A model generated the notes under the pieces. That model made no database searches and had not been told where the DNA came from. It was given only the letters and a program-made list of their open reading frames with translations. Shown piece after piece: positions 1 to 22,457 of a stretch of 64,000 nt of DNA. The DNA comes from Lineus longissimus (Eukaryota; Nemertea; Pilidiophora; Heteronemertea; Lineidae). The position numbers were made by a program, and so were the translations under genes. The stretch lies in assembly GCF_910592395.1 (NCBI RefSeq), contig NC_088311.1:12338501-12402500 (forward strand). The letters run 5' to 3'. How positions within the stretch are numbered: the stretch's first letter is position 1; each line of letters begins with the position of its first letter.

Positions 1-1105
1 ACCAGAGTTGCCATGTTTGAATCCAAGAACGGATTTCAAATCCCTTCGGAACCTTGCACACCCGAGACAGTACAGATAGAAATTGGAAGCTGGGTTCAAT
101 ATCAGGCATGTATGTGCTATTTCATATAAAACATGTCGTAACTCCCGGTAGTAAGGTCCGTGATCTTCGACATTGGGCATGAACACATCCCAGAAGAGGT
201 GGTCCAGTGCGAATGGACTTGCGGCAACGATGAAGACCGAGGTCACCAGGAGGAGCATCACTGTTGTTCGCCTTTCTCGGCGGTGGCGCTGGCGGCTGAG
301 TACGTCCGTCTTCTTGATTCCCCGCCCGCTCTTCCTGACATTATGAACAATCAGAGCATTGAGAATTAATATACTAACAAACGGGATGTAGAAAGCAAGG
401 GTAACGTGAATTTGGTCGAAAATGTAAAGGTACGCTGGGTTCACAAATGCGGCATCAAATGGACACTTGTGTTTCAGTACACCCGCGCTTGGTTCCGCCA
501 CTCTGAAGAAGTTCTGGACGTGAAAAAAGGACCCAGACGCCCGGTATCACGAAACATAATATTTTTGATCGGCGCGGGGTGCACAAGTGGCGCCACTGCA
601 ATGGAAATGCAACGGCTATGAAACGGTCCACAGTTAGTAGGACTAACATCCAGTGAGAGTTAGACATACTGAGAAAGGCCACAAATATGAACTCTTTGCA
701 GAATATATCGCCATTTTCCCAAAACACGTCGGGAAATAGATTCAGGAAGTACCGCTGGAGGAAAAAGTACACCAGCAATGAGAACGAGTCAACGAATACC
801 AAAGCTCGCATATAAATGAATGTTGAATCTTTGCCATACTTTGCCATTCGGAGAACAAGAAATGATAGAATGTTTCCAACGATCCCGATGGCAATAATGA
901 ATGGTGGAACAATCTTGTCTGTCAGAAATATCACGTCATCGAACACTTTGGGGTAATCCCGTAAAGTCTCGTTGATGGTCACGTTTTCCAAGATGGGGTC
1001 GATGCCGCCACTTTGATCGATGGTGCCAACAACGTCTGCCGCACTAGTTAAATTGTCCATGATTGTGTTTTCCGAGTTGTTGAACATACCTCTGACAAAG
1101 TCCAT
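1..1105 (-). CDS. FMRFamide receptor-like GPCR (copy 1), 3' end outside the window, one frameshift
   Basis: Class A seven-transmembrane neuropeptide-type receptor of the plasma membrane. The frame from 1105 encodes an N-terminus with NNS, NLT, NVT and NET glycosylation sites, TM1 (GIVGNILSFLVL), TM2, TM3 with a DRF box (TVDRFIAVAFPL) and the start of TM4. The frame then shifts at a run of six A on the plus strand (523-528). Below it another frame carries TM4 to TM7, with a CPFD extracellular loop, TM5, a basic third loop, TM6 (VMLLLVTSVF), the TM7 motif NPASNFYLY and the start of the C-tail, still open at base 1. One base fewer in the homopolymer would make one continuous receptor, so this is either a sequencing error or a young pseudogene. 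The match to FMRFamide-receptor-like proteins is from family knowledge; the ligand is unknown. A broken paralog lies at 5052-5219 and 23331-23826 on the same strand. Confidence 0.85.
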
Positions 1106-2605: not shown

Positions 2606-3939
2606 CAAGGGGTCGGGGATAAACAGTGAAGTAGTGAAACCTATTGAAATCGCAAAAATTGGATTCCGAGGAAACGATTTGAGGCTTTAAAGGTATGAAA
2701 TCTTATGAGGATTCCTTCAGATTTCTATTCAAGGTTCATTGGCATGTGTGGTGCGGGCGCTTAAAAACTCCTGCCAAGATATGTCAGATTTGTACATGAC
2801 CACGCCAAATCGCTGTAACCGATTGGATAAAACTGCGTCACGTGTATTATCATCATCATCATTGTCTCAGTCGAAGGATGAATATATTCTACATTCTTGG
2901 ATGAGACCATTGGGCTCCACCCCTAATGGTAAATAATGCATATTTAATTTTATGACAATGGTCAAGCTTACCTCGGCAGGCCAGCTGAGCCTGTTGATCA
3001 TATGCGTATGGTTATGAATGCGTGTGCCAGAGCACAATGAAATGACCCTTTTATGGGAAATGAACACCATTTACTCCGTTTTGAAATGTTCATGCGCCAT
3101 GGTAGTGGAAATCGAGGCCTAATTCATCGACCGCAAACGTCACCAATTCAACTTATGAACCATGAATAATCATCAATTACGCTGGGCCTAGTGACTCCTT
3201 TCTCAGGTCTTATAGCCAAGAATGTAGAGTATTCTACCGGGTGCGTTATGCAGGTCTTTTGCTCTGTATTTCGTCGAAATGCGCCGCAGTATTGTGGTGA
3301 GGGTGTATTTTAAGCACTTAGGGACCGTACCCTAGTATTATCATGGATATTCCTGGCCATCGGAAGCGTGATATTCGCCCTCGATGAACGTTTCGTGGGC
3401 CAGAAATATCCTATCGCCCTCGGGATCGCAAGATGTGACGCGGATTTGACTTTTTCGGCGCCCAACGGTTCTGACTTTGTCCGTAAAACATACTCATTAA
3501 ACTGCTAGGTGCCCTGCTGCGCTTTACATCCATTATAAATAATCTAGGCCTACATGCAGAAATATTATCCAGCAATCAATTAATTGGCGGGAAGTACTTA
3601 AATAAAAAAAATACATTTTCGATTTGAATAATGTACCAGTCATCATTTCCCCGACTTCATGACTTGAAACGGATGTCATGTATTAGCTTACACAAAATAA
3701 CATGAATCACGTTGTTCTTGAGATGGGATGGACATTTAAAGGGGCACCGTATACAAACCCATATTGGGTCAAAAGCGTGTCACCTTAGTCAATACAAGCG
3801 CCGACTACCCCAAAAGTGCTCGGATGATTGCGCAAGTGATCAATACATATCCGGCTAATCCTTTTATATATAGCGCATGCGGAACAAGTCCGGATGTCGT
3901 GATTGGTACCCATGACATTTAGCTCCCGTGCGAAACAAC
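2606..3939. other. Non-coding stretch with a weak stem-loop
   Basis: No gene was recognised. A 14-base inverted repeat with one mismatch (GGATATTCCTGGCC and GGCCAGAAATATCC) lies near 3349-3408 around a loop of about 30 bases. Confidence 0.35.
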
Positions 3940-4363
3940 TTAACTTCCAATTGAGATTATTCATCAATCACAATATTTACAAACAGATGTACGGTACGGT
4001 ACGTTACTTATTAAGGATCTAAGTGAACTTCGACCCCAAATAACTGTAGATTGTCCAAAAATGACATTTTGAAACGCCAAACAAATAACGTAGGCAATCT
4101 TTTTCTACTTTTATGAAAATTTTTTTTAATTTTTTGAAAATGGAAATGTGTTGTTCACCACCTCGAGCTTGGCCGTTTAACTACCGATTTCCCAAATTTG
4201 TGATAATTATGCTTAAATTAATTTATTATTATTTTTACTACATACATTTTCAGTATATTTCAGGAATTTTTAGGATATCTACAGATGCTTGATACGTAAC
4301 GTACCGTACCATCAATTTGTTTATAAATATTGTGATTGATGAATAATCTCGGTGGGAAGTTTA
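3940..4363. mobile_element. MITE with about 65-bp terminal inverted repeats
   Basis: The sequence from 3940 through the GGTACGGTACGTTAC block (about 4010) recurs in reverse complement at 4284-4363. Both arms contain GAGATTATTCATCAATCACA followed by an AATATTTA(C/T)AAACA stretch. The interior of roughly 270 bp is AT-rich with no open frame. A related terminal motif (GGTACGGTACGTTACGTAT) is seen alone at about 48977. Confidence 0.75.
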
Positions 4364-5051
4364 GACGGTCTGGAGCAATACTCCTTGACGTCTTTGTCAG
4401 AATTAACAACTGAGAATTCATGGTGTGCATCTAGACTGAAACCTGTTTGAATCCTTCAGATCAACTTATTTGTTTTTTTTATATTCAATTTGTGCCAAGA
4501 AGAGGAATGCATTTTATATTCATCAGAAACAACTGTCAAGGAGTGACAGAGGTCGTGGAATTGCCCTCTGGGAAAAACTAATGGGTGTATGTCGACATTA
4601 AAGACGGGAAATGTGTACTGGTTGGGAAAATACGACTGCAAATAACTCTTATTAAAAGGATATAGCGTCTTACATATTCCGGTTCTGTTTAAACTGAATG
4701 TATTGGTGAACTGAATGTATTGGTGGTCGTCGTCAGATATACAGATGAATTTTAGGCGAGATATCCCCTTTTAATATAATTTTACAAAGCAGCCCTAAAT
4801 GCCATGATCCTTAAAATATAATAGTCTGTCCATCTATGATCCAGGGGCGTGGCTTGCTAGCTTTTTATCGGGGGGGGGGGGGGCAGAATAACATATTTTG
4901 CCAATTTTCGGCCAAATTCTGCATGAAAAACACGTTTTTCGGACTGCCCGCCCCCTATCCCTCTCCCCTGGATTCCCGACCTGTCCGCTGTTATCGTTGT
5001 TCATTGGTAAACCTACCACTGACCAAACGACGCCAGTTTTGCCAGACAGTG
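4364..5051. other. Intergenic, poly-G tract
   Basis: No gene was recognised. A run of 14 G lies at 4870-4883. It presumably includes 3' sequence of GPCR copy 2. Confidence 0.35.
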
Positions 5052-5500: not shown

Positions 5501-5683
5501 ATGGCAGCCCCCATGAAATGCTGTCTTCATCTTCTTGAAAATGAAAGTGGCCCATTATGTCCTATTTATGCAGCCAGTTTTGAGAGAATTGTGGTCAGGA
5601 TCAAAGAGTGGATTGATCTAGGTGGTAAGGAAGGTGAATTAGCTGAAGGATTAGCTCAGGTGAGATCTATAGACTGTGCAAAC
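5501..5683 (+). pseudogene. Academ transposase, 5' part, cut by the PolB element
   Basis: The frame starts MAAPMKCCLHLL and runs to the codons for DCAN at 5683, then hits a stop two bases inside the inserted element. The same codons (tgt gca aac) reappear at 17601-17607 beyond the element, where the frame continues HDGYMFYIK into the main part of the gene. The start is the first ATG after a CCAAT box and inside the left TIR region. A possible splice donor (CAG/GTGAGA) at 5657-5664 is not needed, because the frame reads through. It would encode the N-terminal Cys-containing segment of the transposase. Confidence 0.75.
5673..5683 (+). repeat. Target duplication candidate of the PolB element, left
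   Basis: The 11-mer ACTGTGCAAAC occurs here and at 17597-17607. A tighter reading is a 5-bp duplication AACTG (5681-5685 and 17596-17600) directly abutting TIRs that begin AG and end CT. Both readings keep the transposase frame, because they differ by two codons. Confidence 0.65.
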
Positions 5684-5685
5684 TG

Positions 5686-5779
5686 AGCAGCAAGGGGGCT
5701 GAGCGTAGTAGCTGTTTGGACCCGCCACGCCTCCCAGGCCTATTCCCGCGAGCGAGAGACACAACTTTACCCATAAAAA
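5686..5779. repeat. Left TIR of the PolB element
   Basis: 94 bp matching 17502-17595 in reverse complement with two mismatches (GCGA/GCGT and CAACT/CAACA). It is directly followed by a foreign composite repeat beginning GGCCAGGGCCATTGTGCTC. Confidence 0.9.
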
Positions 5780-6814
5780 TGGCCAGGGCCATTGTGCTCA
5801 CCTCATGTGGAGGAAAGATGGATAAAGAGCATGGTATTGTGTCATGTAGTGTTAGGTTTGATGTAGGTCCAAGCAATTACAATTTCCCCAAAATGGCCAA
5901 TTTACAGTACATTCGACCTCTGTGACCTTGAAAAGTAGGTCAAATCAAAGAAGACCCGGGTGACACATTGAATGGTTGTTAGAATTAGATGTACCTATGA
6001 TATAAAATTGGTGCCAATCGGGCAAGTCATTACTAGGAATAATGGCATTTTGAAGAATTTAGGATTTGGCCCCCTCCCTGGAGGCCAAACGGCAAATCAG
6101 ATCGCACCAAACTTCGGTACCTGAGATCACCAGACCAAGGGGTACATGTGTACTTAATTTGTGATCAATAGTCATTGCAGTTAAGAAACGTGCCATAGTT
6201 ACGGCCTGACGGCGAATTTATGCCATTTGACCTCTGTGACCTTGACAAGAAGGTCAAATCAAAAACCTGTGTGACATATACTGTATGGTGGTTAGATGTA
6301 CCCATGATATCAAATTGGTGGCAATCGGGCAAGAAGTTAAGGAATAATCACATTTTTAAGGTTTTTGGATTTTGCCCCCTAGTGGTATAGTGGTGAATCA
6401 TATTGGACCAAACTTCGGTCCCTGAGATCACCTGACTAAGGGGTAAATGTGTACCAAATTTGGTATCAATAGTCATTGCAGTTTAGAAACGTGCCATTGT
6501 TACATCCTAACGGCCAATTTACACCATTTGACCTCTGTGACCTTGAAAAGGAGGTCAAATCAAAAACCCGGAGGATATAATGATGCACCTTTGCTAGAAG
6601 TACCTACCATATTTTTTTCAAAATTTCCCGACTACTATTAAGGGAGATATTGCATATTTTCACTTTTAACGTTTGGCCCCCTGGTGGCCAAACCATGAAA
6701 CGAATCGGACCGAAACTTGGTCTCCAAGGTGTCATTACATAAGGGTACATGTGTACCAATGTTTCATCTCAATAGCTCTAACAGTTACGAAACGTGCCCT
6801 GCTAACGGACGACG

Positions 6815-6846
<32 letters not shown>

Positions 6847-6899
6847 ACAACGGACGCCACGGTATGGGATAAGCTCACCTCTGCTAAGAGGTGAGCTAA
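5780..6899 (+). repeat. Composite dispersed repeat (GGGCCATTGTGCTCAC ... AGGTGAGCTAAAA)
   Basis: It contains about three tandem units of roughly 300 bp. Each has GTGCCAT(A/T)GTTAC, CATTTGACCTCTGTGACCTT, a GGTCAAATCAAA box and a ...TTTGGCCCCCT box. It ends with a CGA microsatellite (about 6808-6850), GCCACGGTATGGGATAAGC and a short hairpin (AGCTCACCTC-loop-GAGGTGAGCT). A degraded second copy lies at 32846-33240, sharing the GGGCCATTGTGCTCAC start. Such repeats are common in marine invertebrate genomes, from memory. It appears inserted next to the left TIR of the PolB element. Confidence 0.7.
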
Positions 6900-8622
6900 A
6901 AAGGAAGCTACCAGGACCTGTTTCGAAAAGGACTTATGGGGGGTGAGTAAAGCCATTATCTCGGCATCCAAGCCCTCGCCCCCCGTCCAGTACAAAACAA
7001 CTGAAACTTTTGAACACTTCTACTCGACTTACGATCTAATAACGCCAATGAAACTACCCGAACACTTTACGACATCTCCCAACGTTACCTCTCCGTACGA
7101 CCATACCAACATCACCATCGAAGAACTCGAAAGAACTCTGAATCACGTAAATAAAAGGTCGGCTCCCGGCGAGGATAGAATCACCTACCGATCAATCGCC
7201 AACCGAAAGGACCTGTGGCCGGACATCGTGGCCCTCTTCAACTCTGTGCTCCAGTCCGGAACTTCACCGCCATCTTGGTCAGAGGCCAACATTACACTTT
7301 TGTATAAATCCGGGGATTCTCAGGATCCCAAATCCTATCGTCCCATATCCTTAACGTCATGCCTGCCACGCCTATTTCACAAGATCCTTGCTGCCAGGAT
7401 TCATACATATATCGAGGAGAACGACCTGATCGACCGGACCGTGCAGAAGGGTTTCCTCCGTCACGCCAAGGGAACAATCGACCACCCCTTTCTTATACAG
7501 GAGGTCATCGACGACGCCATCGCGAGGAACGAAACCCACTGTATCACGCTACTCGATTATAAAGACGCCTTCGGATCCGTTAGCCACGATCTCATCATCG
7601 AAACGCTGAAGACGCTGAATCTCCCGTCAAACATCACAACGTATCTTACGAGCCTGTATTCTAACATCTCGGCCAAAGTCAAGACCAAGGACGGAACGAC
7701 CAATTCATTTCGATTCAAGAAAGGAGTCATGCAGGGAGACACCCTCAGTCCCCTCATCTTTATATTGTGTCTTGACCAGATCATCAAGAAATTCGCACCA
7801 GAAGCAAAGATTTACGGATGCCATCTTCAAAATGGGGACACTGTTTACTTTCTCGCGTTTGCAGACGACACCACATTGATCACCAGAGACCCCGAGGAAC
7901 ATCAACGATTTGTCAACCGGTTATGTGAACTTTCTCGATTAGCAGGACTAACTATCAGGCCAAACAAGTGCCTTAGTTTCATGATCAAAGACGGTACCAT
8001 TCAACCGCTCAAAATTCTCATTGGGGACGAAACAACCAAATCTCTAGGCAAAATTCCACACAAATACTTAGGAAGGGCAATGGTTACAAATCTAGTCGAG
8101 GGGCCATCCAAAATTATCTTCAAAAAATTCAGGGAGGGTCTCAAAAACATCAACAGGGAGAAATTTCTCAGGGGAAGGGACCGTCTCAAAATTCTTGCAA
8201 ACTACTTTCTACCCTCGTTTCAGTTCCTTTTCATGGCCCACGAAATCACAGCTGACAACCTGCGGCGCATGGATGTATTGGCGCTCAGATACTCGCGGAA
8301 ATGGTGTCTGAATGACCCTGGGTACGTAAGCACCACGACCACGTGGCCCCTTGTTAGGCCATCCGTGCTCTACAGTCTGGTGCAAACTCAGGCTTATGTA
8401 CACAGGCTCTATTCGGACGAAACTGTGGTCTCCGCTGTGCATCAAAAACACGCTCGCGAGAACAACCCGCACATCCAGGCCGCAATCGGAGCATTTCTGA
8501 ACACCCCCAATATCAAATCCGCCCTGCGCTACGTGAAACGCGAAAAAATGGGCACCTTGCCCTTCGAACCTACCAAGCTCGCTGCCAACGAGTACCCTGA
8601 TTGGGATGACGTTTTCCCTTAA
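6895..8622 (+). CDS. Non-LTR retrotransposon reverse transcriptase, 5'-truncated
   Basis: One frame is open from 6895 with no in-frame ATG near the start; GTG at 6943 is only the first possible alternative codon. It encodes a reverse transcriptase: fingers (SYRPISLTSCLPRLFHKIL), motif A (LLDYKDAFGSVSH), motif B (KKGVMQGDTLSPLIF), motif C (FADDTTLI) and a thumb with HKYLG. About 200 C-terminal residues follow, without a clear zinc knuckle. The N-terminal endonuclease and start are missing, as expected for 5' truncation, with the break at the end of the composite repeat (about 6899). The catalytic FADD is intact. I cannot place the clade with confidence. It is nested inside the left arm of the PolB element. 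Confidence 0.85.
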   Translation, partial: AKKEATRTCFEKDLWGVSKAIISASKPSPPVQYKTTETFEHFYSTYDLITPMKLPEHFTTSPNVTSPYDHTNITIEELERTLNHVNKRSAPGEDRITYRSIANRKDLWPDIVALFNSVLQSGTSPPSWSEANITLLYKSGDSQDPKSYRPISLTSCLPRLFHKILAARIHTYIEENDLIDRTVQKGFLRHAKGTIDHPFLIQEVIDDAIARNETHCITLLDYKDAFGSVSHDLIIETLKTLNLPSNITTYLTSLYSNISAKVKTKDGTTNSFRFKKGVMQGDTLSPLIFILCLDQIIKKFAPEAKIYGCHLQNGDTVYFLAFADDTTLITRDPEEHQRFVNRLCELSRLAGLTIRPNKCLSFMIKDGTIQPLKILIGDETTKSLGKIPHKYLGRAMVTNLVEGPSKIIFKKFREGLKNINREKFLRGRDRLKILANYFLPSFQFLFMAHEITADNLRRMDVLALRYSRKWCLNDPGYVSTTTTWPLVRPSVLYSLVQTQAYVHRLYSDETVVSAVHQKHARENNPHIQAAIGAFLNTPNIKSALRYVKREKMGTLPFEPTKLAANEYPDWDDVFP

Positions 8623-8963
8623 AACGTACACGTCATTTCCGGTAAGTGGGTTCCTTAGGTTCCTAACAAAGTCTGATTACCATTTCGCAACCTCTCTATT
8701 ATCTGTACTTATGGGGCCTACATGTACCCCGTTGTAATTCTCAATCCCTATTGCTCAATAACTTGACCCACCACTGATAGTTGACACCAAGGATTACCTA
8801 TCTATCTCAATCCTGGGCCCACCGACCAACCTATTCTTGCATAACACTTTCACCCGTCCACTGCCCATATTTTCCGCGCGGAACTTCTAATGTATCCAGA
8901 AGTATTAAGGTAGCAGGAAGGGTTGGGCGTTTGTGGTTTCTGAGTCTGAGGGGGTTGGTGTCT
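8623..8963. other. Probable LINE 3' UTR and unassigned sequence
   Basis: No coding capacity was recognised and no poly-A or microsatellite end is obvious, so the 3' boundary of the LINE is unknown. Confidence 0.35.
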
Positions 8964-9023
8964 GTTGACTGTGCTTTAAGAGAGACTAGGCATGGCGCCA
9001 GTCTCTCTTAAAGCACAGTCAAC
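8964..9023. repeat. Perfect 24-bp inverted repeat (hairpin)
   Basis: The arms 8964-8987 and 9000-9023 are perfectly complementary (GTTGACTGTGCTTTAAGAGA...) around a 12-base loop AGGCATGGCGCC. The right arm and its flank recur as a direct repeat at 9342-9401. Confidence 0.9.
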
Positions 9024-9401
9024 AGGCATTTGGTCTCAGTATTTGGGTTTTGATTGCCATGACTGTACCCCTGTAAAAGTCCGAGGAGGAGAAGTTTGGA
9101 ATGATGAAAGCATTGAAGAAGAAGAAATGTTATTATTGAGGAAAGCAAAATTTATTATGAGACTAGAAGGCAGTGTCCTGACTTGATTATTTTGAAAATG
9201 GCGGTCTGAACACATTAAAAGGTGGAACATGGCATTTTATCGACTTTGAAGTGTTCCGCAGTTAAAGGGAGACTATAGGCAGCAGCTAGGTAGGCAAGAT
9301 AAAGTCATAGAAATTTGCCAATAGGGGTCAGTCATATCTCTAGGCATGGCGCCAGTCTCTCTTAAAGGACAGTCAACAGGCGTTTGGTCTTAGTATTTGG
9401 G
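8988..9401 (+). repeat. 60-bp direct repeat pair (8988-9047 and 9342-9401)
   Basis: Both copies start AGGCATGGCGCCAGTCTCTC and end AGTATTTGGG, with about three differences. They lie in the non-coding left arm of the PolB element. Confidence 0.85.
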
Positions 9402-9551
9402 TAAGTACAGAATCAAGGCAGCTCAGAGAGCAATGATTGAACGATGCTGTGGACAAGTCCAAGGATACTGCATCAGTCACGACCAACTTCTCATCAGAAA
9501 GCGTCACCACCAGCATATTCAATGTTCAATTCCAACCTGTACCAGTCCAAT

Positions 9552-11078
9552 GCACGCCTGTCATGGTCAGCAGTGGTCAGCTTAGCGCGATATGGAACAT
9601 TCTTCCGAAACTCAAGCGAGGGAAGTCTGCTCATTAGCCTATCTCGCGCACTGCTCCTTCTTGTCAAACATCGTAGTGAAATCGTGGTACAGTGGGGCGT
9701 CCTCGAGGATTGCAGCTGGTCGGACAGACGTGAGGTGGAATGTGGGCGGCTGCACTTCTTCGTTGATGTGCGATGGCAGATAGCACAGTTGTTGCGTTGC
9801 ATGACAGCTGAAAGTGAATGTGATATCATAGAACTGAGGCGTTTGCAATGAGACTATAGGTGAAGTAGAAGGAAGGAGTGAAATGGGCCATCTTCCAGTG
9901 ACTAATATACAGCGTAAGGGCACTGGGTGTTGTTAGATTCAGCATTGAATGTATTCCTCGTACAAGCGTGAATAGTGTGGACATACAGTGAGAGGTGAGA
10001 GACCCCTATTGACTACTTCTTGTAACTTTATCTTGGATAGTGCCCCTTTATCAAGACTGAAACCCACTGTGCGGGGCTAAGAAATTACCTTTATAATCCT
10101 AGTTGGATAACCACTGTGTAGATGATTTGAAGAGTGCTCTGTGGATGTGTGCCTGTAATGTCAATGAAAGTATGATGAGGTGATGACGATAGTGGAATGA
10201 CGAAATATTGGAAAGAGATCTATTCCTAGAAGAACATATGTCCTGTTTTGACTGGCGCATTTTAGAATCAGCAGTGAGCACTGTGTGTAACATGGTGGAG
10301 GCAGCGGAGATAATAACTGTGTCGAAAGTATTGTTATAGGGCCTTCCCTAGGCCCATGGGGTTAAATTTACAATCCACGATTGAAAAGACGTAGTTTGAT
10401 CGCATTCAACTATAAATACATTGAACAGCTGTGTTCCTTTAGTAAACACAAGTGAAACTGAAATAGACCAAAACAAGTGATTTTGGGGCTTTGGTTTAGA
10501 CGCATGCCCCACATGCGCCATGCGGGATTATACGGTTCATGTGAACTTGTTGACATCTACATGATCTAGTGCTGTTATTGGTCATGGTACATGGTAGGCC
10601 TAATCATCATGGCTATATGTTTCAGGAAAAGCTCGGAGTAAAATGAACTGCCGATGAATAATGATGTTGTTCATGTTTACCATGTTTTCTAGTACATAGC
10701 CATAGGGTATGCACTGGCCAGTGCACTTTCTGCACGTCGTCATGGTCATGTACGTGATTACCTTGCATATTTTGTTTTTTGAATGCGCATGCTTTTTGGG
10801 CAAAATCACTTGTACCAACACTAATGAATAATGTCTTCTTATCCCTATGACTCCATACACAGTGAGGGCATTGTCCCATTCCCATCAAATGGTAACTTAT
10901 TGTACCGTATTAGGGTGGAAGTTGGGGAGCAGATACCTACCGTTGCACGCCTGTCATAATCAGTAGTGATGAGCTTAGCGCGATATGGAACATTCTTCAG
11001 AAACTCAAGCGAGGGAAGTCTGCTCATTAGCATATCTCGCGCACTGCTCCTTCTTGTCAAACATCGTAGTGAAATCGT
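9552..11078 (+). repeat. 134-bp direct repeat pair (9552-9685 and 10945-11078)
   Basis: The two copies align without gaps from GCACGCCTGTCAT to AGTGAAATCGT, at roughly 90 percent identity by eye. They lie in the left arm of the PolB element and are separated by 1.26 kb of sequence with no recognised gene. They could be relics of a duplicated coding or regulatory segment. Confidence 0.85.
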
Positions 11079-11085
11079 AATGGAA

Positions 11086-11110
11086 AACGTCTGGCTTTGC
11101 GCCAGACGTT
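11086..11110. repeat. Perfect 10-bp hairpin
   Basis: AACGTCTGGC, a five-base loop TTTGC, then GCCAGACGTT. It lies just after the second copy of the 134-bp repeat. Confidence 0.8.
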
Positions 11111-11810
11111 GAGACTAATAAGTGAAGAACTAACAGGTAAAGAACTTCTACTTGCGCGAGACTGATCTGATAAAATTATCATTGCAGAGACTACGGTGAC
11201 GTACACATATATTTTTTACAATCAAAAATGCCCTCAAAAGACGAAATGGAATGATTATTTTATTGATATTTCCTACTATATACCTTCCGATTATCACTTT
11301 ATACAAATAGATCGGCGTTAGGTCGCATGCTTTTCTTTCCTGGTGACACTATAAAGCAAAATAGTTGCAACCCCGTAAATGCGCTATAAGTCCAATAATA
11401 AGTGACGGTGACCCGTTATAAATGTTTCGCCAGCTTCGCTTTTTTGCCGCTACGCGGCGCGTTGGGCCCTTGCGTCTAGTATCTACGGATTTGCGCGCCA
11501 CTTATGTGACTTGAGTAGTCAAATAGTCCATCTTAGGTAATCGACTAGTACCATAGCATTAGTCTTGGCGTATGTCACCAGTTGGTTGGTCACACGCAAC
11601 TCAGTTTGTGCATAAAACCATAAACCCGGTATGTCTTATGCATGTATGTTATCTTCCAATAACCCTTACTATCAGCCAGTAATCCATTCCTGGCCTTACC
11701 CAATACAAGTATGACCGTCTTATCTCGACTTAGTTCCTGTAAGGTCATCATTGTTTACAAACACCGACGTACCTTTCCCCATTCCTGTCTACTGATCTTC
11801 AATGTTCCGC
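11111..11810. other. Left arm of the PolB element, no gene seen
   Basis: No open frame with recognisable content. GC-rich palindromic bits (CCGCTACGCGGCGCG near 11448-11462) are present. Confidence 0.35.
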
Positions 11811-12191
11811 TTACCTAGTGAATTACCCTGTCAACTACTCCCACTTACCTAGTGACATACCCTGTCAACTACTCCCACTTACCTAGTGAATTACCCTGTC
11901 AACTACTCCCACTTACCTAGTGACATACCCTGTCAACTACTCCCACTTACCTAGTGACATACCCTCTCAACTACTACCACTTACCTAGCGACATACCCTG
12001 TCAACTACTACCACTTACCTAGTGTCTTACCCTGTCAACTACTACCACTTACCTAGTGTCTTACCCTGTCAACTACTACCACTTACCTAGTGTCTTACCC
12101 TGTCAACTACTCCCACTTACCTAGTGTCTTACCCTGTCAACTACTCCTACTTGCCTTGTGTCTTACCCTATCAACTACCCCACTTGCCTAG
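11811..12191 (+). repeat. 34-bp minisatellite, about 11 copies
   Basis: The unit is of the type ACTTACCTAGTGACATACCC followed by TGTCAACTACTCCC. The first six copies mostly carry GACAT or GAATT and later ones GTCTT, so higher-order variants arose by local duplication. The array separates the coding block of the PolB element from its non-coding left arm. Confidence 0.95.
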
Positions 12192-12409
12192 TGACTTTGT
12201 GACTTACCTCATTCGTCAGAAAAATAGACATTTGGTGTCTGCATCAGTCGTCCAATGTCAAAACCTCTCTTCAATACCATTCTACACGCTATGTTGTCGT
12301 GCCTGTTCTAGTGCGCGATCCTTAGCAGGAAGATGCTGACAAAGGCTATCGATCTCTGTTTTTCTCTTGCAGGTTCTTATCCAGCCCACTTATGATCCAC
12401 TAAGTTGTC

Positions 12410-12949
12410 TCACCTCTGCTCTAGCCTCGATAAGCTCAGCATTGCAGCGTCGGCATCGTTCTTCTCCTGTATCAAACATCTGGCATTTACCAGCTCATCT
12501 TCAACCTTTGGACTCACGGTATCCTGCTTTGGCACTGTCTGGTCGATTATCTTGTCCTTCTCAGCTACTTGTTTCTGAAGACTGCGCAACTTTTTCCGCT
12601 CTGAATGACTTTGCTCTATATATTTGGCATGTTTGGGTTGCCTAACATCAGCGGGGTAGGCCAGTAACTCACGTAGCGTTCCTCTGTCTTCAACTGCGCC
12701 GTCTACACTCTGTGTTCTTAGCTGTATCTTCAATTCCTCTATTTCAGACCTCATTCGCTCGCACTCGGCGCTACTCTCTTCGAAGTCACGCTCAATCTCG
12801 TCGTATCTTTGCCTCTCGACTTCGGAGCACACTCTCAACACTCGCTGGGCACCAATGTCATATTCCCCGGCAACGACACCAACTGGGAACCCACGACGAC
12901 TCTTCGACGCAATTTCAATACGCTGCTGCTCAGTTAGTTCTCTCGGCAT
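12410..12949 (-). CDS. Small HTH/coiled-coil protein A of the PolB element
   Basis: 179 residues. The N-terminus (MPRELTEQQRIEIASKSRRG) looks like the first helices of a homeodomain-like or psq-type HTH. It is followed by a long charged coiled-coil region (about residues 40-110) and a Glu/Lys-rich tail. It starts the same way as the upstream protein B (MPKKTELTEEQMQEIQSLKG), suggesting paralogs. It lies 151 bases downstream of B on the same strand. A DNA-binding or replication-accessory role is inferred; I recognise no named family. Confidence 0.6.
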   Translation of the reverse strand: MPRELTEQQRIEIASKSRRGFPVGVVAGEYDIGAQRVLRVCSEVERQRYDEIERDFEESSAECERMRSEIEELKIQLRTQSVDGAVEDRGTLRELLAYPADVRQPKHAKYIEQSHSERKKLRSLQKQVAEKDKIIDQTVPKQDTVSPKVEDELVNARCLIQEKNDADAAMLSLSRLEQR

Positions 12950-13100
12950 TTTGTCTCACTATGTCTCTGAAATCCTAGCCTCTAAATCGAAGTTTCCCGG
13001 CACCGGAAAATACCCCCCCCCCCTACCCCGCTACATCGTCTGGTTTCCCACCTCCGATTCCCCGTGCCCTTTTCCGTCCCCGTGATCTCTTCTGACCCTC

Positions 13101-13742
13101 CTACGCCATATCAATTATACCTCGTGGCCTCTTCACTTGCTCCTCCGGTTCCTTCCTCTTGTCCACAATGAAATCCTCAGGACGACTCCCAGTACCTTTA
13201 TACACCGTGTTCTGTTCGAATTCCCGCCTGATCTTCGTACATTGACGCCCTGTCTCATACAGCTTCCATAGAATGGCGGCAACTGGTACCAGGTACATCA
13301 GTCCTTTCACCAGCCCTACATCCTCAGCCTGTTCCACGGCCGAATCCTTATTTAGCTCCTCGTCCACCAACCTCATGAATTCTGCGTCCATGGCCTCAAG
13401 GTCATAACGAACGTGATCGTCGTCGTCATCGTCCAGCCTCTCCCGTATCCTGTTCGAGATTGAAGCTAGCATGTCACTTTGTTCATCTATTGCAGCCTCC
13501 AGACCGCCAAGTCGGTCGTAGAAGTCTTTGACTGTCGGGACTACTGACCACTGCTGGGTAAAATGGTCTTGTCCTTGCACAGATAGGGCCGCTAAAGCTG
13601 TTTCCGGTACATCCTTCAATATCTTGCGTAGGCGCCCCAAGCCTATCTTGAATCTTTTCCTCACATCATCAGCGGGCTCTATTCCCTTTAGAGACTGTAT
13701 CTCTTGCATCTGCTCTTCAGTTAGCTCAGTTTTCTTAGGCAT
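13101..13742 (-). CDS. Small HTH/coiled-coil protein B of the PolB element
   Basis: 213 residues. The N-terminal segment (about residues 5-45) resembles a short HTH (TEEQMQEIQSLKG ... VRKRFKIGLGRLRKIL). The middle is acidic and coiled, with a run of six Asp. A hydrophobic stretch (GLMYLVPVAAILWKLY, about residues 150-165) could be a membrane segment or a buried helix, and the tail is basic. It lies 38 bases after the stop of the polymerase/helicase frame on the same strand. Function is unknown; the context suggests an element-encoded accessory protein. Confidence 0.6.
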   Translation of the reverse strand: MPKKTELTEEQMQEIQSLKGIEPADDVRKRFKIGLGRLRKILKDVPETALAALSVQGQDHFTQQWSVVPTVKDFYDRLGGLEAAIDEQSDMLASISNRIRERLDDDDDDHVRYDLEAMDAEFMRLVDEELNKDSAVEQAEDVGLVKGLMYLVPVAAILWKLYETGRQCTKIRREFEQNTVYKGTGSRPEDFIVDKRKEPEEQVKRPRGIIDMA

Positions 13743-13780
13743 CTTGATTCTTGGTCGTATACTCTTACCCAGAATTTCTG

Positions 13781-14206
13781 TTACACCAACTTGATGCGCC
13801 GATTGTCTGTCACCCTGTACTCTGAGGGTCTTAGGTACACCCCTGACATATCAGGGCAAATGTCTCCTTCAGATAACCCTTTGGCCGGATCCAGATAGAA
13901 CCCAGCCATGTCACCTTCACACTTCGCACATTTCCCACCCTGGCTTGCCATTTTTTCCAGGACGTCGTCGACCCTGACTGTGAAATCAGCCCATCCCACC
14001 ACCTTGACTATCGGCACCAGTGCTTCCTGAATCCTCTTTCGGATGCTCTTCTTTTGTTCTTCTGGGGCCTTGATCCTCTCAAGTTGTTCCATGAATTCGA
14101 CCCTCGATACAGCGAGGTAGGCAAGGTTAGCCCACTCCAGGTAATCGTCGGGTAATCGTCGGTAATCCAGACTTTCTGTGGGTGTTCTATTGTCAGTCCC
14201 TGACAC
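13781..14206 (-). pseudogene. PolB element: end of SF1 helicase plus Cys-rich HNH-like tail
   Basis: This frame continues the helicase of 14008-15759 after a break. It holds the last helicase motif (NLAYLAVSRVEFMEQLERI, similar to motif VI of Pif1/RecD-type SF1 helicases), then a basic helix, then GGKCAKCEGDM, which looks like the first half of an HNH/endonuclease VII-type zinc site. The break coincides with an exact 11-bp tandem duplication (GTAATCGTCGG at 14141-14151 and 14152-14162). An 11-base gain explains the frame change. It is described here only as a break; whether any RNA or protein bypasses it is unknown. Confidence 0.75.
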
Positions 14207-15759
14207 GAATGCACCGTCATCGCGTATCCCAATCTCCAGTTACATCCTTGGATGGCCCTTTCGGCAGCCTCCATCGTCACCTTGACTACGTCATTCAGCA
14301 CCAGTTCTTCTCTGTCATTTGTCCCAGGAATGGTCACCATCACATTCTGGCGTCGGCTATCTCTGGGATGATACAGCAGCGGAACCAGCTGTTCGGGGTA
14401 CTTGTTTTTGTGCTTCTGAAGCAGCAGCTTTTGAACCCTGTCCCTCACCGCCGTCCTGCTCACCACTATCAGATGATCTGGATCCCATTCCTCAAGGAAC
14501 CCGGTCCAGGGTTTAATCGGGACGGACTCCCTCATCAACCTGACCTGTACCTTGTCTGGCTGCAGACGCATCTTGGCTTTCAGCTCCCTGAGGCTGACTT
14601 CCTTTGCTCGGTGATCGGTGGCGATTTCCTCGTAATAATCGGCTTCAGCTCTTAGCCAATCATGGGGCGATTGTCCCGATATCGGGGGAGGTTGACCTTG
14701 GTCGCCGCAGCAGATGACCTGGACTGATTTCGTCTCCAGCCAGCCAAGGAACGTCTCCAAGATTGCTTTCGGGACTGTACACACTTCGTCCCATATCACG
14801 ATCCTTGGAATGTACTTTTGTCCCATCCTCTCCGGCATCCATTCTTCCTGACCACTCCATCTGAAGAAGCTATGGTAGGTCTGTGCTTTCACACCTCTGG
14901 TTTTCATCTCCTTCGCCAATCGGTGCGTCGGAGTTAAGACGAGGGGGTCGCGGTTCCTGAACACATTTGTTGCTCGTGTCTTCTTTCCGGACCCACCCCC
15001 TCCATTCAGGTAACTCAGCCTGTTCACTGACAGAGGGTCATTGGCGATAGGTGCCTGGCTGTCTTCATGATCGTTCCTGCCATGCCTGTGTTCATCCTCT
15101 GCCACATAACAGGCGTGGTCTTTTGGGGCGTATAGTGTTTCACTCTTGTCTCGCCACTGCGCTGGCAACACTGGAACAATCTCCTTGTCCTCAAGATAAC
15201 ACTCCAAGCACGATCCATCCTGGCAGAGACCACATTCTCCCTTTTCTCGGCACGCCTTTACACCAACGAGACGCTCAAAGGCAGTCTTCTTGACGTACAG
15301 CGAGTCAGTCGCCACCCTGACAGCCTCCGTTGCATCAAATCTCGTCAGCATCATCAACAGATTGATGTGAGCATAGGCCAACATTGAGGCCCTCAGGTGA
15401 GCGTACTGAGGCTGGCTTCCGTCATAATATGTTAGGATATGCCCCAGGGGACATCTCTCTGGCGCCCCCACCAGAGTACCATTCTGCCTTGTATCTCTTA
15501 CCAAATAAGCTAACTCGCCCGGGTCAGTAACAAGCCGTCTCGTCATTGTCTTTCCATCAGCTTTGGATCCCTGGGTGAACTTGCCTATCACCGAACATGC
15601 CTGATCTCTGTCCCTTGGCAACCACACCTCTTTCTGTACGTCGTAACTCACAATCACCTCAGTCACCTCCAGGTTTCTCAGAATGCCACTCTCCAGCATG
15701 TAATTAAGCAACACTGTTGGTACCCAAGCCTTCCGGAATAACCGGATGACAACTTTCAT
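14008..15759 (-). pseudogene. PolB element: C-terminal polymerase palm fused to SF1 helicase
   Basis: The first 170 residues carry the rest of a family-B-like palm: a KFTQGSKADGK block, LRASMLAYAHINLL, and ATDSLYV in the position of the usual DTDS motif C (the first Asp is Ala). A CxxC-type cluster follows (CREKGECGLCQDGSCLEC). Then comes a superfamily 1 helicase: Walker A GGGGSGKKT, motif Ia, Walker B IWDEV, motif III CCGDQGQPPPI, and YAMTVHSCQGLTI near the end. Family-B polymerases fused to a helicase are unusual. The 5' end overlaps the preceding frame (15704-15759), where the polymerase changes frame. It acts, if at all, in replication of the element. Confidence 0.8.
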
Positions 15760-17137
15760 CGAACGCCCATTCTCTCACTTTTGCGAATCCTGTCAGGTCT
15801 TTACTTAGAGGTCCATTCACTGCAACCCTGGTCATCTTATTTCCGGGATGTCCAAATCTCTGAAAGTACGGTTGGCACTCTCCATTGCCCATGAAGCTTG
15901 CTGGGTAGCAGGATTTCATGTCAATGCTCACTATATCATTAACATGGTAGGCTTCCGCATTCCACAGCCCACCATGGCCGTGCTCTACACAGGCTAGTTG
16001 TACGTCATCCAGCACGTGCACTGGGGTTGGCTTCCAACCATTTCTCTCTCGGGCCACTACGGCCGCGGCATGATTGACACCAAGAACTCTTTCGGCTAAC
16101 TCTCCCGGAGCATCCGTCAACTCTCCGCAAACTCTCACTATCTGCTCATGCATCTCTGGTGTTCTGAAAGCGCGACCGTCTTGTAGGACGAATTGGTCAA
16201 CCCCTAATTTCTTCTCATGTCCCCCCATAAGCCAAACCACCACAGGCTGACCCTCGGTTGCTTGCTGTATGGCCTCCCATACGTCCCCCTCGTATGTTAC
16301 TACTTGTCTCGAGGAGGGGAAACGGAGGTCTTTGGGCCAGGCGTGGCCGTTATGCACAATCAGCTCGATCACTCTTTGTCTCTGGGTTCGATACTTGCCG
16401 CTATTATATACGTCTTCACCGGCAATGTCCTTCAGGACAATTGCACGCCACATAATCTTTTCCAGTCTTACTACATCGTCAACAGTCGCTCCATGCTCGT
16501 GAACCTCCTCTTCCCAATTTGCGATCTTATTTTGCCGCTCTATTGACAGACCATGTCCGCGTTTGGCTCCGTCGAAGTGTTCAAGTACTCTCCGCGCGAC
16601 ACAATTAAGCTCACCAACCCTTAGGGGTGCTAGATTCGCCGGTTCGGCCGGCTCCACTGGATACAAGCCGTACACAACCGCACTCACAGGATACGCTGTC
16701 CCGTAGTATGGCCTGTCAATGCCCGTCAACTGTCCAGGCGCCGTCTCTCTCGACAGGGTAACCAATCTACCGCCCCGACGTCGGCCTTCTTTCACCGGGT
16801 CGAACTTGTCCTCAAGAAACCAATTGCCGTCAGCGCGCATACGCAAGAACTTTAACCTTAGCAGGAAGTCGCCTTCCGCAAGCTCATTCAATATCGCCGC
16901 GGCCCTTCTGTCAGTCATCTGAGCGTCCAAGATCATGCGGCCTGCCCTCAGGTTGATGCCAGCAGCAACTGGTAGGTCTCCAATATCCAGAGGATCTTCC
17001 TCTTCCTGCATCCAGGTCGAGTAAGTTGCTACTGCGCCATCAATCGCATACTGCCGTTTCGCATCCTTAACAACGTTAACCCATTGCTCGCCCTCTGGGA
17101 AAGGGATCGAGGCGGGAACTTTTCTATCGAGGTCCAT
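15704..17137 (-). pseudogene. PolB element: N-terminal part of a divergent family-B DNA polymerase
   Basis: The frame is open from 17296; I choose the ATG at 17137 (MDLDRKVPAS) because residues before it look non-coding. The protein of about 477 residues ends with polymerase motif A (VSIDMKSCYPASFMG, the DxxSLYPS type) and FGHPGNKMTRVAVNG. The polymerase then continues in the frame of 14008-15759, so there is a frameshift or small deletion near 15704-15759. I cannot identify a full exonuclease domain in the N-terminal 330 residues. It is transcribed leftward from the right TIR. An AT-rich stretch with TATATATAT (about 17358-17407) lies upstream and may hold the promoter. Confidence 0.75.
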
Positions 17138-17501
17138 TTTACTGGGGTATACCCTTGGGATTTCAAACGTCCAAATGAAAATTTTTGAGAGTCTGGGTAG
17201 ATTCTGCACCGTCAGTCTATACAAAAATGCGGTGGTGAATTGGACTTTCACAATTTTGCCCCGTGACTTATATCTGCTGTTTTTTGCGACATACAATTGT
17301 TCTAGAACATTTTGTCATGGGACATTCCCATTGCGCAAAGACACTTATCAATCGTACTATATATATATGTTATGCGGGCCTATGGCCCTTGGACTCTTAT
17401 ATATATGTAAATATCTGTGTACATAATAAACGGGGCCAAAGTTGGTGTTTTTTTGGTTCTCCCTCGTCTTTCGACCTACCTCGCCGCAGACACAAGAGTC
17501 C
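17138..17501. other. Right subterminal region of the PolB element
   Basis: It lies between the polymerase start and the right TIR. AT-rich with ATATATATG repeats at about 17357-17408. It probably contains the promoter for the leftward operon-like gene block, by inference. Confidence 0.4.
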
Positions 17502-17595
17502 TTTTTATGGGTAATGTTGTGTCTCACGCTCGCGGGAATAGGCCTGGGAGGCGTGGCGGGTCCAAACAGCTACTACGCTCAGCCCCCTTGCTGCT
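17502..17595. repeat. Right TIR of the PolB element
   Basis: Reverse complement of 5686-5779 with two mismatches over 94 bp. It ends ...CCCCCTTGCTGCT and is followed by the AACTGTGCAAAC target sequence. Confidence 0.9.
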
Positions 17596-17596
17596 A

Positions 17597-20500
17597 ACTG
17601 TGCAAACCATGATGGGTATATGTTCTACATTAAGCCTACACAGTCTACATGTACAGGCACCACTGCATCATCACATCAGGCTGAGAATAAACCTACAGTA
17701 CCTGTATATCCTGAATTTTGTGCTGACTGCATATCCAAGAATGGCTTTGCATTTCACAGGAGTTGTTACAATAGATTTACGTGCCCTGACCGAGTTGCGG
17801 CTACACACAAACGGATAGCCAAGCAGGCCAAGAAGCGTAAACAATCTAGTGTATGCCAACATGAAGATGATCTTGATACCGAACCTCGGCCACCTAGACC
17901 CAAGCGTGCGCGACAAGAGGCTGACAATATAGAACCGGCAACAGAAGCTACACGCAGAGGGCTTTTTCCCAAGCACTGTATCATTTGCGAGAAGAACCGA
18001 TACACTACTGATTATGCAGGGAGACGTAATTCGGAGAGACTGTGTCTGTGTATGACAGAGCCAGCAGCAGATACTCTAAAAGAAGCAGCCAGGAAAAAGA
18101 GAGACCATAGACTGTTGACTGAATTTGGTAATGTTTGCTTGATAGCTAAGGAGGCAAGGTATTACAACAGGTGTTATGTTTCGTATACCAAATGCGTGAC
18201 GAACAAACCACTCGCAAGAGAAGAAGAAGACGAAGATGTGAGTTATGCGTTTGAACTTTTTTGTACAAGGTTGGTTGAAAAAAGGGTTATCGAAGGTCAT
18301 GAAGTTATGAAAATGGATCAGCTGACTCGGCTGTACAAAGATACTGTATTTGAAGTGAACAATGTTGTCCCGAATTCCTGGACCTACCGCAATCAACAGC
18401 TAAAACGGCGCCTTAAGGACAAATACCCGGAATTGGTGTTTGTGAAACCACCAAAAGGACGAACTTGTGAATTTGTCTTGTACGAGCTTGATGATGACAA
18501 TGCCCCTAGGGTATTGCTACAAGTGAACAACTATAGTATGACAGAGTCTGACACAGCGACTAATACTGAAAGCAATCTGGAAACAGATGAGTTCCCTCGG
18601 TCCTTTTCAACTGATGGTGATGATGATGACAGCGACATGGTCCGGGACTTGTACGGTGCAGCTCAGTGTGTAAAAGGTGCCTTGAACTCTGCGCCACGGT
18701 TTCCTGGACCCTGGCCTCCTACTGCAGATGATTTGAGTGATGAAGCAGCTTACAAAATGATACCGCCTTGTCTCTACAACTTTCTGGCATGGTGCTCTGG
18801 AGTGAGTGAAGAATTGAAAACAGATGGCTTTGTAAAAACAAGTCCTGGTGTCAGGTAAACTGCTTGCCATTTGTCAGGACATTGTATATTTCAGTTCCAA
18901 AGGACGAAAAGTAACGCCAAAGCACTACATTCTTGCTATGACAATGCGTCACCTCACCGGGTCATCTGAGGTGATAGGACTGCTCAATGGCTTGAGACAT
19001 TCTATTTCCCATTCCTCCGTCCTCGAATACGACACTGTACTTGCAAAGAAAGAAGCCAAGTCAGCTAATGATGTACCAACGGGCATGACCAAAGGCAATC
19101 CCACAACATTGGTTTATGATAACAATGACTTTGGCGAGGAGACCCTTACGGGGGCTGGAACGACACATAATACTAATGGTATTATGTATGATTCAGAGTC
19201 AGACTGAGAGAGGCACGGAAGACATTGGGCATGATGATGATGCACAATCACAGTCACTGAAGAGAACCAAAAAAAGGACACTTTCGCCCCCTCCAAAAGA
19301 CATAGTGGCCTACCACAGCAGCAAGAAGAGGAAGGGGCCACCAAAATTTGACAGCGACATTCCTGCTGTGAGTGACGATTGTGAGAAATACCCACGAGCA
19401 TTTGACACTGCGTTCATTGTTTCAAAGTTGCCTGAAGTAGCCAGTGCTGACTTACCAGGATGGACCGGGTTCAATACCATCATGCACCAGGAGATCAAGG
19501 GAAAGAGCAATATAGCCTACTTGCCTATCATCGATGCACCTGCTACTGAAATGTCCACAGTGAACACTGTCCTTCAAAAGAGCGTAGATTATGCCGACAA
19601 GTTGGAGTTGCAGAATGTCGTTGTTGTTTTCGACCAAGCCATCTACAGCAAAGCCCAGCAAATCAGATGGAAGAATGCTCTCTATCGTGAGCGTCTCATC
19701 ATACGACTCGGGGGTTTCCACACCACAATGTGTTACCTGTCTGTTCTTGGGAAACGATTTAAAGACTCTGGTCTGAAAGACATTTTGATTGAATCTGGTG
19801 CTGTAGCTGAGGGATCTATCAATGGAGTATTTAGTGGGCATCATTATAACAGAAGCATGCGTTGTCACAAGTTGGTTTATGAGGAAATGCAGAGGCTCTG
19901 CTGGCAAGCGTTCCTTGACAGTCTTGGATCAGATGAGAGGGAGTTTTTTACTAATCTTGGAATGGAGTTACACAACGTCTGTTCAGATCCTGAATCATTC
20001 AAGGAAATCGTAAAAGGTCAGGAGTTTCAGGGAATGGCTGACGAGTTCGCAGTATTCGTCAGTGATAGGTCAAGCAAAAGTGACACATTTGCCTATTGGC
20101 ATTCGTACCTTGAGATGGTGGAGACGTTGCTGTTGTTCGTCAGGGCAACCAGAGAAGGAGACTGGTATCTACACCTTTCTAGTCTGAAAAAGATGATTGC
20201 CTGGTTCTTCGCGTATGATAAATTCAACTATGCTCGCTATGCGCCCGTGTATCTGATGGAAATGGCAAACCTTCAGAAGACACATCCCCAAGCGTACAGA
20301 CAGCTCTCTGATGGAGGATTTGTGGTCCAAAGTCAAGAAAACTATGGATTTTCGTCTATTGCCTGTGATCAGTCAATTGAACAAACAGTCAATAGAGACT
20401 CAAAAACAAAAGGTGGCCTAACAGGGATAACACTAAGCAAGGGAGCTGTTCATCGGTGGGTTCTGGCTCATTCTGCCAGAGCACAGATTAGCAAGAGATG

Positions 20501-22457
20501 TAGGGAAATAGCAGGGAAAGAGAAAGCTTCACGTTCACGAAAGGACCTTGATGGTGCACGAATCACGGCAGACGAGATGGCTGTTACGAGTGTCATGACA
20601 ACCGTTCAGTCAATGACAGACCCGTTCACGATTGATGATGATGGTCTCCTCAACCTCTCAAATGGCATAGAGACACCGGCAGACATTCGCAGTGACCTAA
20701 TGAAGGCCGAGGAAAAGGGCCATCTTGCATACCAGACGTTTGTGGAGGAGAGACTTGTGGGCGAGGACAAGGATATCTTCAGCACCATAAAACTGGCGAA
20801 GTTAAAAACTTTCTCAGATGTTCTAAAAAAAGGGCCAACAAATGGGGTGCAAGAGAATGTTGCGCTGAAAGCCAATACAGATATTCTTGGGAGGATGGTA
20901 GTGATAGGACAGGCGAAGAACCTTGACATGAAGGATGTGCTTTCTTACAGCCTGCATCCGTTTCCTGCGGCAATTGCAAGCCACGGTGGGGCTCTTGTCA
21001 AGACAGATAAGGCAAAACTACGCAACTACTTGAAAGCCAAGGTGCCACAACCAGAAACCGAATCCGATGCTGATTTAGGTCCAACCCCAAAAGAAGCTGC
21101 TTGGATTTTGGATGGTATGGCTGTCCTTCAGCAGCTTGCCAACCGAAAGGATGCTGTACCAAAGTCATTTGCAGATCTCGCGCGTAGCATATTTGACTTC
21201 ATAGTTTCAGTAGCTGTCAAGTATGGAGCAAAGCGGATTGATTTCGTAACGGATCGCTATCCAGAAAACAGCATTAAGGGGAATGAACGGGAGAGAAGGG
21301 CAGCCAGCGGTGTGCAGGTAATAAGGATCACCAGACCACAGCAGCCTACCCCAAAGCAGTTCAAGAACTTCTTGAAATCCGGAAAAAATAAGGAGAGCTT
21401 AACAGAATTTCTCTTTGAACAGTGGTGCTGCTATTCTCCAGAAAGCTTCAAAGGTGTTGTAGTTTTGATAGCACATGGATCGAAATGCCACTCACTCAGA
21501 GCAAGGGACCCCCAGTTTGAGCCAGGCCTCACTGTTGAAGAAATGCAAGAGCTGAACTGTGACCACGAGGAAGCTGATACGAGAATGTTCTTGCACGCCA
21601 AACATGCAGCAGCTGACTTCAATAACATTGTGATCAGGAGTGAGGATACAGATGTCTTCGTAATAGCTGTGTCTGTAGTGTCTCGCATTGATGCAGAGTT
21701 GTTCTTTCATCATGGGCCATGGTCAAAATTCACCATTACGCACATTAACAATATTAATGCAATCTTAGGAGAGTCTGTGTCTCGGGCCTTAATTGGCCTT
21801 CATGCTTTCACTGGATGTGATAGCGTTAGCGCTTTCAAATCGAAGGGAAAGATCAAACCCCTGGATCTTCTGATGGCGGACAGTGACTATCAAGATGTCT
21901 TTGCAAAATTCGGACAAACCTGGGGAACTAAGTCCCTTGATATGCCTCTAGTAGAAAGATTCGTGTGCCATCTCTATGGACGAAAGGAAGAAACATCAGT
22001 AAACCTGCTACGTTATCACATGTTCAGGTCAAGTTACAAGGTTGGCACAACCCTGCCACCCAACTGGGATTCACTTTCTTGCCATTGCCAGCGAGCAAAT
22101 TATCAAGCCGCAATTTTCAGAAGATGCCTTCTTGCAAATATGAATGCCCCAAGCCCCACAACATTTGGCTGGATGAAGGAGAAAGGGACACTGAAGGTCG
22201 TTTGGAACACCATGCCTATTGCCCCAGATGCCCTGCTCAAACATATCGCATGTGCATGCAAGAAAGGTTGTGGACCTAGGTGTTCTTGTAGACGCCAAGG
22301 ACCTAATGGACTGAAATGCTCAGAATTATGCAAATGTGAAGGATGCACAAATCAACCTGAGGATGAAAATGCTGAAGATGATGTCCAACTTGACCGTTCA
22401 GGGGATGAGGACGAGGGAGAGGATGGCTATGAGGGTGATGAATTTGGTAACTTTTAG
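17597..22457 (+). pseudogene. Academ-type transposase, main part (XPG-like nuclease and CXC cluster), two frameshifts
   Basis: The frame resumes from 5683. The N-part has a zinc-finger-like CADC...FHRSCYNRF segment and a basic linker. It breaks near 18845-18857 and re-enters at SGKLLAICQDIVYFSSKGRK. It breaks again at an exact TATG tandem duplication (19183-19190). The long 3' frame (to 22457) contains an XPG/FEN1-like fold: ILDGMAVLQQL, FVTDRYPENSIKGNERERR, a CDHEEADTRM acidic site, SEDTDVF, and LHAFTGCDSVSAF (about residues 660-905 of that frame). A CXC-type cluster near residues 1043-1078 (CACKKGC...CSCRR...CSELCKCEGC) and an acidic tail follow. The nuclease reading is my inference from motif order. 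The TE context (TIRs, 3-bp TSD) supports an Academ transposase. Confidence 0.8.

Follow-up and report, generated by a model that had tools for sequence, protein, structure and literature searches.

A 64,000-nt stretch of the Lineus longissimus genome (NC_088311.1, positions 12,338,501-12,402,500; internal label G000:C4:12338501-12402500; hereafter the window) contains an element bounded by terminal inverted repeats (TIRs). In our view this is probably a polinton-like mobile element, present here as a dead copy. On this reading the element has a Tlr1-like replication protein, in which a DNA polymerase is fused to an SF1 helicase, and a reverse transcriptase (RT) as one of its own genes, while a viral module is absent from this copy. 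Polinton-like viruses (PLVs), with which it is compared below, are small DNA viruses. Our confidence is good rather than higher because the viral module of a sister locus, C6, could only be partly identified.

An element inserted in another transposon's gene

The window element is real mobile DNA, as its TIRs and a duplicated target within the gene of another transposon demonstrate. Both had been claimed in a preliminary description of the stretch, and both are confirmed: the two 94-bp repeats are identical at 92 positions, with two mismatches, and joining the flanks restores a single open frame. The boundaries are as follows.

5681..5685, unstranded: target duplication AACTG, left (alternative 11-bp reading 5673-5683)
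5686..5779, plus strand: left TIR, beginning AGCAGCAAGG, 92/94 identity with the right TIR
17502..17595, minus strand: right TIR, ending GCTGCT
17596..17600, unstranded: target duplication AACTG, right (alternative 11-bp reading 17597-17607)
5501..5685, plus strand: interrupted gene of another transposon, left part; the frame runs into the right flank once the flanks are joined
17596..18858, plus strand: interrupted gene, right part (listed open reading frame (ORF) 17620-18858)

A wider inverted pair can also be read (5677-5779/17502-17604, 95% complementary), and no further TIR copy was found within the 64-kb window, where the next best match was 22 bp at 82% (E 0.63). The target duplication itself has two readings. 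In the 5-bp reading, AACTG is duplicated exactly flush with the TIR ends AGCAGC...GCTGCT, whereas in the 11-bp reading ACTGTGCAAAC is duplicated, with 2 and 1 extra bases beside the TIRs. The uninterrupted gene would differ accordingly, with one TGTGCAAAC unit expected in the 11-bp reading versus two in the 5-bp reading; with the flanks joined, its frame from the ATG at 5501 has 477 aa or 480 aa, respectively. A Mutator-like transposon, a candidate taken from the 11-bp duplication, is weakened by the flush 5-bp reading. Downstream of the interrupted gene lies a 1113-aa gene (19116-22457, plus strand) with a weak match to DUF6589, below the cutoff.

A Tlr1-like polymerase-helicase and its relatives

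The replication gene occupies three minus-strand frames at the right side of the element.

15704-17296, minus strand: polymerase-helicase piece 1, N-terminal part with a protease-like Cys/His region and palm motif A
14008-15759, minus strand: polymerase-helicase piece 2, palm end with VATDS motif C, and SF1 helicase (AAA_30)
13781-14206, minus strand: polymerase-helicase piece 3, which carries motif VI of the helicase and the CxxC tail

The earlier claim of a polymerase fused to an SF1 helicase is borne out by the motifs SIDMKSCYPA, VATDS, GGGGSGKKT, GDQGQPP and SRVEFMEQLERI, all present across these frames, and by the Pfam search of window proteins (AAA_30, E 9.5e-11). The helicase lies C-terminal to the palm within one protein, the frame being broken in the window and single in the relatives. 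The window copy is dead, because the frame breaks in this gene suffice alone. Piece 2 is up to 68% identical to its relatives, and intact single-frame relatives measure 1,065-1,367 aa among the first 21 listed. In the alignment of relatives (A3), the TD of motif C is kept in 43/43 covered rows and the preceding D in none, and the window reads VATDS. The Walker A motif is GKKT in the window and mostly GKT in the relatives (37 of 39 covered rows have T, the other two K and D). The region before the palm has Cys in 15/15 and His in 17/17 covered A3 rows and gave no fold match; a vOTU-like label for it is suggested by its position and by analogy with PMC11071308. Our best reading from sequence is a helicase of the Pif1/RecD2 type within SF1, a putative zinc-type tail and an OTU-like Cys/His region.

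The tail had been called HNH-like, which stands in part: the CxxC is present, and an HNH core occurs in 24 of 27 long relatives, but the core was not seen in the three window frames nor in the C6 tail frame. The proposal that this tail inserted the element is unlikely here, because the core is not seen in the C4 (window) and C6 copies.

The preliminary description knew of no transposon class with a polymerase-helicase fusion. That claim fails, because the architecture has been published as the "Tlr1-like helicase". PMC11071308 describes the fusion in PLVs, Tlr1 and transpovirons, with a vOTU, a palm, an SF1 helicase and a C-terminal GIY-YIG or HNH domain, and with a palm whose motif C lacks the first Asp and which is predicted to be active; PMC12721341 also describes a polymerase-helicase fusion. 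Our protein shares with the Tlr1-like helicase (pPolB-S1H; PLVs, Tetrahymena Tlr1) the palm and SF1 helicase in one protein, the loss of the first Asp of motif C, the Cys/His region before the palm and, in relatives, a C-terminal homing-type endonuclease. It differs in that the named hosts of its relatives are molluscs, a coral and Glomeromycota, that an RT is linked and that the window copy yielded no virus-type gene. In the Helicase SF1-pPolB of OmPLV from Oxyrrhis marina, a single protein likewise holds an SF1 helicase and pPolB, but its helicase precedes the polymerase and it retains an exonuclease (PMC12721341).

The suggestion that similar proteins occur in coral and fungal annotations is supported, as the named sources of relatives include, besides molluscs, the coral Desmophyllum pertusum and Glomeromycota fungi (Rhizophagus, Gigaspora, Diversispora and others). 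Among viral contigs no relatives were found (1 and 26 pattern matches, and 1 with a C6 ORF), nor any TIR match, and 50,697 phage records gave 2 weak partial matches. Of 60 genome-contig stretches, one proved to be a relative: L001, a 3,152-bp contig of a Diapherotrites metagenome-assembled genome. It encodes a disrupted member of this polymerase family and probably represents eukaryotic contamination. Among the papers listed by literature searches, none was seen to report Tlr1-like polymerase-helicases in animals or Glomeromycota fungi. One study (PMC10640383) reportedly concerns viral PolB genes in Rhizophagus. What is new is the hosts of the relatives and the linked RT, the polymerase-helicase fusion itself being already known.

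A reverse transcriptase linked at three loci

The RT frame lies between the left TIR and the small genes of the element (within 5780-12400) and was unmentioned in the preliminary description.

6943..8622, plus strand: reverse transcriptase of non-LTR type, 559 aa without a stop, pointing inward from the left TIR (RVT_1 3.8e-31)

In PDB it matches proteins of R2 and LINE-1 (best 2.6e-30). When the 391-Mb assembly (30 contigs) was searched with the polymerase and nine candidates were scored, three loci matched: C4 (the window), C6 (5828592-5830689) and C11 (7352080-7353053), the latter two matching in pieces. In the search with the window RT, 78 of 1,745 candidates were scored and 81 matches obtained; after the window RT itself, the best were C6:5816602-5818203 (53-75%) and C11:7349220-7350694 (43-64%). 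All three polymerase loci (3/3) share one arrangement: a plus-strand RT is followed, at higher coordinates, by a minus-strand polymerase, the two genes facing each other. For the RT, the ratio of nonsynonymous to synonymous substitution (dN/dS) is 0.15 for window-C6 (529 codons) and 0.27 for window-C11 (509 codons), values that are only rough because dS is high; the polymerase pieces give 0.13, 0.36 and 0.03 for window-C6 and 0.15 and 0.31 for window-C11. We read the RT as an element gene because of its linkage at three loci and these substitution ratios.

A nested LINE was dropped as the reading of 6943-8622, since among the scored candidates of this genome the RT is most similar to those of the sister loci C6 and C11, and was kept as a rival. 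In that form it holds that the RT belongs to a nested or specialised retrotransposon, as with Ngaro in virophage-like elements. Such nesting has precedent, since RT elements within PLVs and endogenous virophages are documented in PMC12220804 and PMC8547959, and the non-LTR type of the RT would also suit it. Other scored matches are at 22-35%, except C5:19133359 (42%, 171 aa) and C2:13300922 (40%, 137 aa), intermediate relatives without a polymerase match, which also count for nesting. However, the constant presence, orientation and order of the RT at the polymerase loci, the lack of any match above 42% elsewhere among those scored, and the purifying selection on the RT all count against nesting, as does the absence in the window of a repeat family of at least 25 bp on both sides of the RT. 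We regard a nested RT as rather unlikely. The two intermediate loci (C5:19133359-19133868 and C2:13300544-13301338, 35-42% identity, no polymerase match) could be further relics.

If the RT is an element gene, it would have been captured long ago from a non-LTR retrotransposon and then kept under purifying selection; our best guess is a putative role in element copying or end repair. A position between both TIRs is seen in the window only, because the left end of C6 was not found and that of C11 is known only as a subterminal inverted repeat.

Part of a viral module at C6 and its probable absence from the window

At C6, the interval between RT and polymerase (L028 6207 to L012 6411; roughly 10 kb) holds an rve integrase, a Pox_A32 ATPase and unmatched ORFs, among them L012:2850-3575, 3738-4127 and 4088-4753. 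The integrase scored just below the cutoff for rve (Pfam 5.8e-7) and below it for the IS481 core (2.3e-13), and the packaging ATPase scored above it (Pox_A32, 1.8e-10). One further protein aligns weakly with phage head-decoration and fibre families, over a short stretch of 40 residues (1.6e-4). The C6 integrase and polymerase are packed tail-to-tail, with stop codons one base apart. The preliminary description had said that a Polinton gene set around full-length relatives would refute it, and much of such a set is present here, as integrase and ATPase; no capsid was identified, however, and at C6 too the polymerase gene is broken.

Another possible account of C6 is that an ordinary Polinton landed in a small element there, separating its RT from its polymerase; in its favour, an rve integrase and an A32-type ATPase are Polinton hallmarks, and most ORFs of the block are unmatched. 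This we judge very improbable: the adjoining stops leave no space for a TIR, which disfavours a nested Polinton, and no separate polymerase was seen by eye among the listed ORFs of the block, ten of which were searched against Pfam and ten against PHROGs.

A polinton-like element remains our preferred reading. With Polintons (Mavericks) it shares TIRs, a short target duplication and, at C6, the rve integrase and A32-type ATPase; as for the 5-6-bp flush duplication of Polintons, the window has the flush 5-bp AACTG, with the 11-bp reading also possible. Their rve integrase is found at C6 at a marginal Pfam score, with no convincing trace in the window and C11. The Polinton pPolB, according to PMC11071308, lacks the SF1 helicase fusion and keeps its exonuclease, whereas here the polymerase is fused to a helicase. 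Of the packaging ATPase and major capsid protein that mark PLVs, the ATPase is at C6, no capsid was identified, and neither was traced in the window or C11. The Tlr1 element has an rve integrase, as C6 does. We suggest that the living element would have been copied as linear DNA from its TIRs by the polymerase-helicase and inserted by an rve integrase, which would have duplicated 5 bp of the target. This enzyme, for which C6 and similar relatives have a gene, may have been supplied in trans or lost from the window copy. The window and C11 copies would then be a form without the viral module, of which C6 keeps at least part. Loss of the module from the window is something we infer, because none of 13 C6 proteins could be traced convincingly in the window or the fetched C11 stretches.

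Between RT and polymerase the window element carries other features.

11810..12197, unstranded: 34-bp tandem array, 11.4 copies, separating the RT side from the polymerase side
12410..12949, minus strand: 179-aa protein, helix-turn-helix (HTH)-like N-terminus (by eye), with a relative beside the C11 polymerase
13101..13742, minus strand: 213-aa protein, HTH-like N-terminus (by eye), one hydrophobic stretch

The 179-aa protein is 70% identical to its C11 relative over 74 aa (dN/dS 0.21), and no relative was found in the C6 stretches. The 213-aa protein has a single relative, P0121 (46% identity over 90% of its length), while the C6 and C11 stretches gave no match to it; its best 19-residue mean hydropathy is 1.58. 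Neither has a convincing Pfam or NCBIfam match. The 34-bp array was not found in L012, L014 or L028, stretches with parts of the C6 and C11 copies, and a transpoviron-like central tandem repeat was rejected on that ground. A 301-bp repeat (5895-6571, 2.2 copies) between the left TIR and the RT, with relatives at window 33155-33221 and in L015, is probably a dispersed repeat. A 135-bp direct repeat, 95% identical (9551-9685 and 10944-11078, spacing 1,393 bp), lies between the RT and the small genes.

These small proteins matter for another account, in which the element represents its own capsid-less, integrase-less transposon class, similar to transpovirons, inserted by the 179- or 213-aa protein or by an unseen enzyme, with C6 a recombinant that acquired virus genes. 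The C6 virus-type genes are untraced in the window and C11, which share the 179-aa gene, and the 213-aa protein has a homologue elsewhere. Window-C6 identity shifts near 14.8-15.0 kb, from about 0.90-0.96 over 13841-14817 to 0.74-0.84 over 15041-17100, which is a sign of recombination between lineages. According to PMC7031253 and PMC11071308, transpovirons likewise have TIRs, pPolB-S1H, small proteins predicted to bind DNA or with a membrane segment, a tandem repeat 3' of the helicase, and no capsid. They exist as linear episomes in giant viruses and have TIRs of 380-520 bp (PMC7031253), whereas the window element is chromosomal, inserted in a 391-Mb genome with three loci, and has 94-bp TIRs and an RT. 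The tail-to-tail packing at C6 argues against a separate class, the AGCAGC...GCTGCT ends and flush 5-bp duplication fit an rve integrase, and the two small proteins match no enzyme family. We consider such a class improbable.

Several observations weigh against the polinton-like reading. The palm, examined for the protein-primed type (TPR1/TPR2) by comparison with phi29 polymerase, gave an hhalign E of 0.11, which is not significant and similar to the phi29 terminal-protein control (E 0.09). No polymerase appears among the 50 PDB fold-match rows shown, although the helicase fills those lists and the absence proves nothing. Structural comparison with H6WBE3, which by our guess may be a transpoviron protein, gave low TM-scores (0.22/0.24) and a root-mean-square deviation of 30.5. 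Synonymous divergence of the RT is near saturation (dS 1.95 for window-C6, 1.63 for window-C11). The ORFs beside the C6 ATPase are unmatched and none is identifiable as a capsid protein, and 13 C6 proteins compared with the window and the fetched C11 stretches gave a best E of 0.011. The left end at C6 was not found, and the C11 ends share an inverted stretch of 46 bp at 93%. The right ends of all copies, as placed, contain TGCTGCT.

Elsewhere in the window, fragments of rhodopsin-type G-protein-coupled receptors flank the transposon cluster on either side (455-1105, minus strand, 7tm_1 7.9e-15; 23344-23826, minus strand, 3.9e-9). At 35961-37748 (plus strand), an RT-like ORF (by eye) precedes one that encodes a GIY-YIG domain (3.2e-7), and the pair looks like a Penelope-like element. 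A YqaJ-like viral recombinase domain (4e-14) lies at 39033-39698 (minus strand), and a separate RT at 52738-54024 (minus strand; RVT_1 2e-22).

More broadly, we put forward tentatively, and with some doubt, that animals carry a lineage of polinton-like, TIR-bounded elements that keep two genes permanently and under selection, one for the polymerase-helicase and one for a non-LTR-type RT, and that exist in forms with and without a virus-type integrase and packaging module. The many intact single-frame relatives would make the polymerase-helicase family accessible to study. For a DNA element to carry a linked RT under selection would be unusual; if this is real, the RT would use nucleic acid of the element itself, and a single DNA element would combine two polymerases that read opposite types of template.

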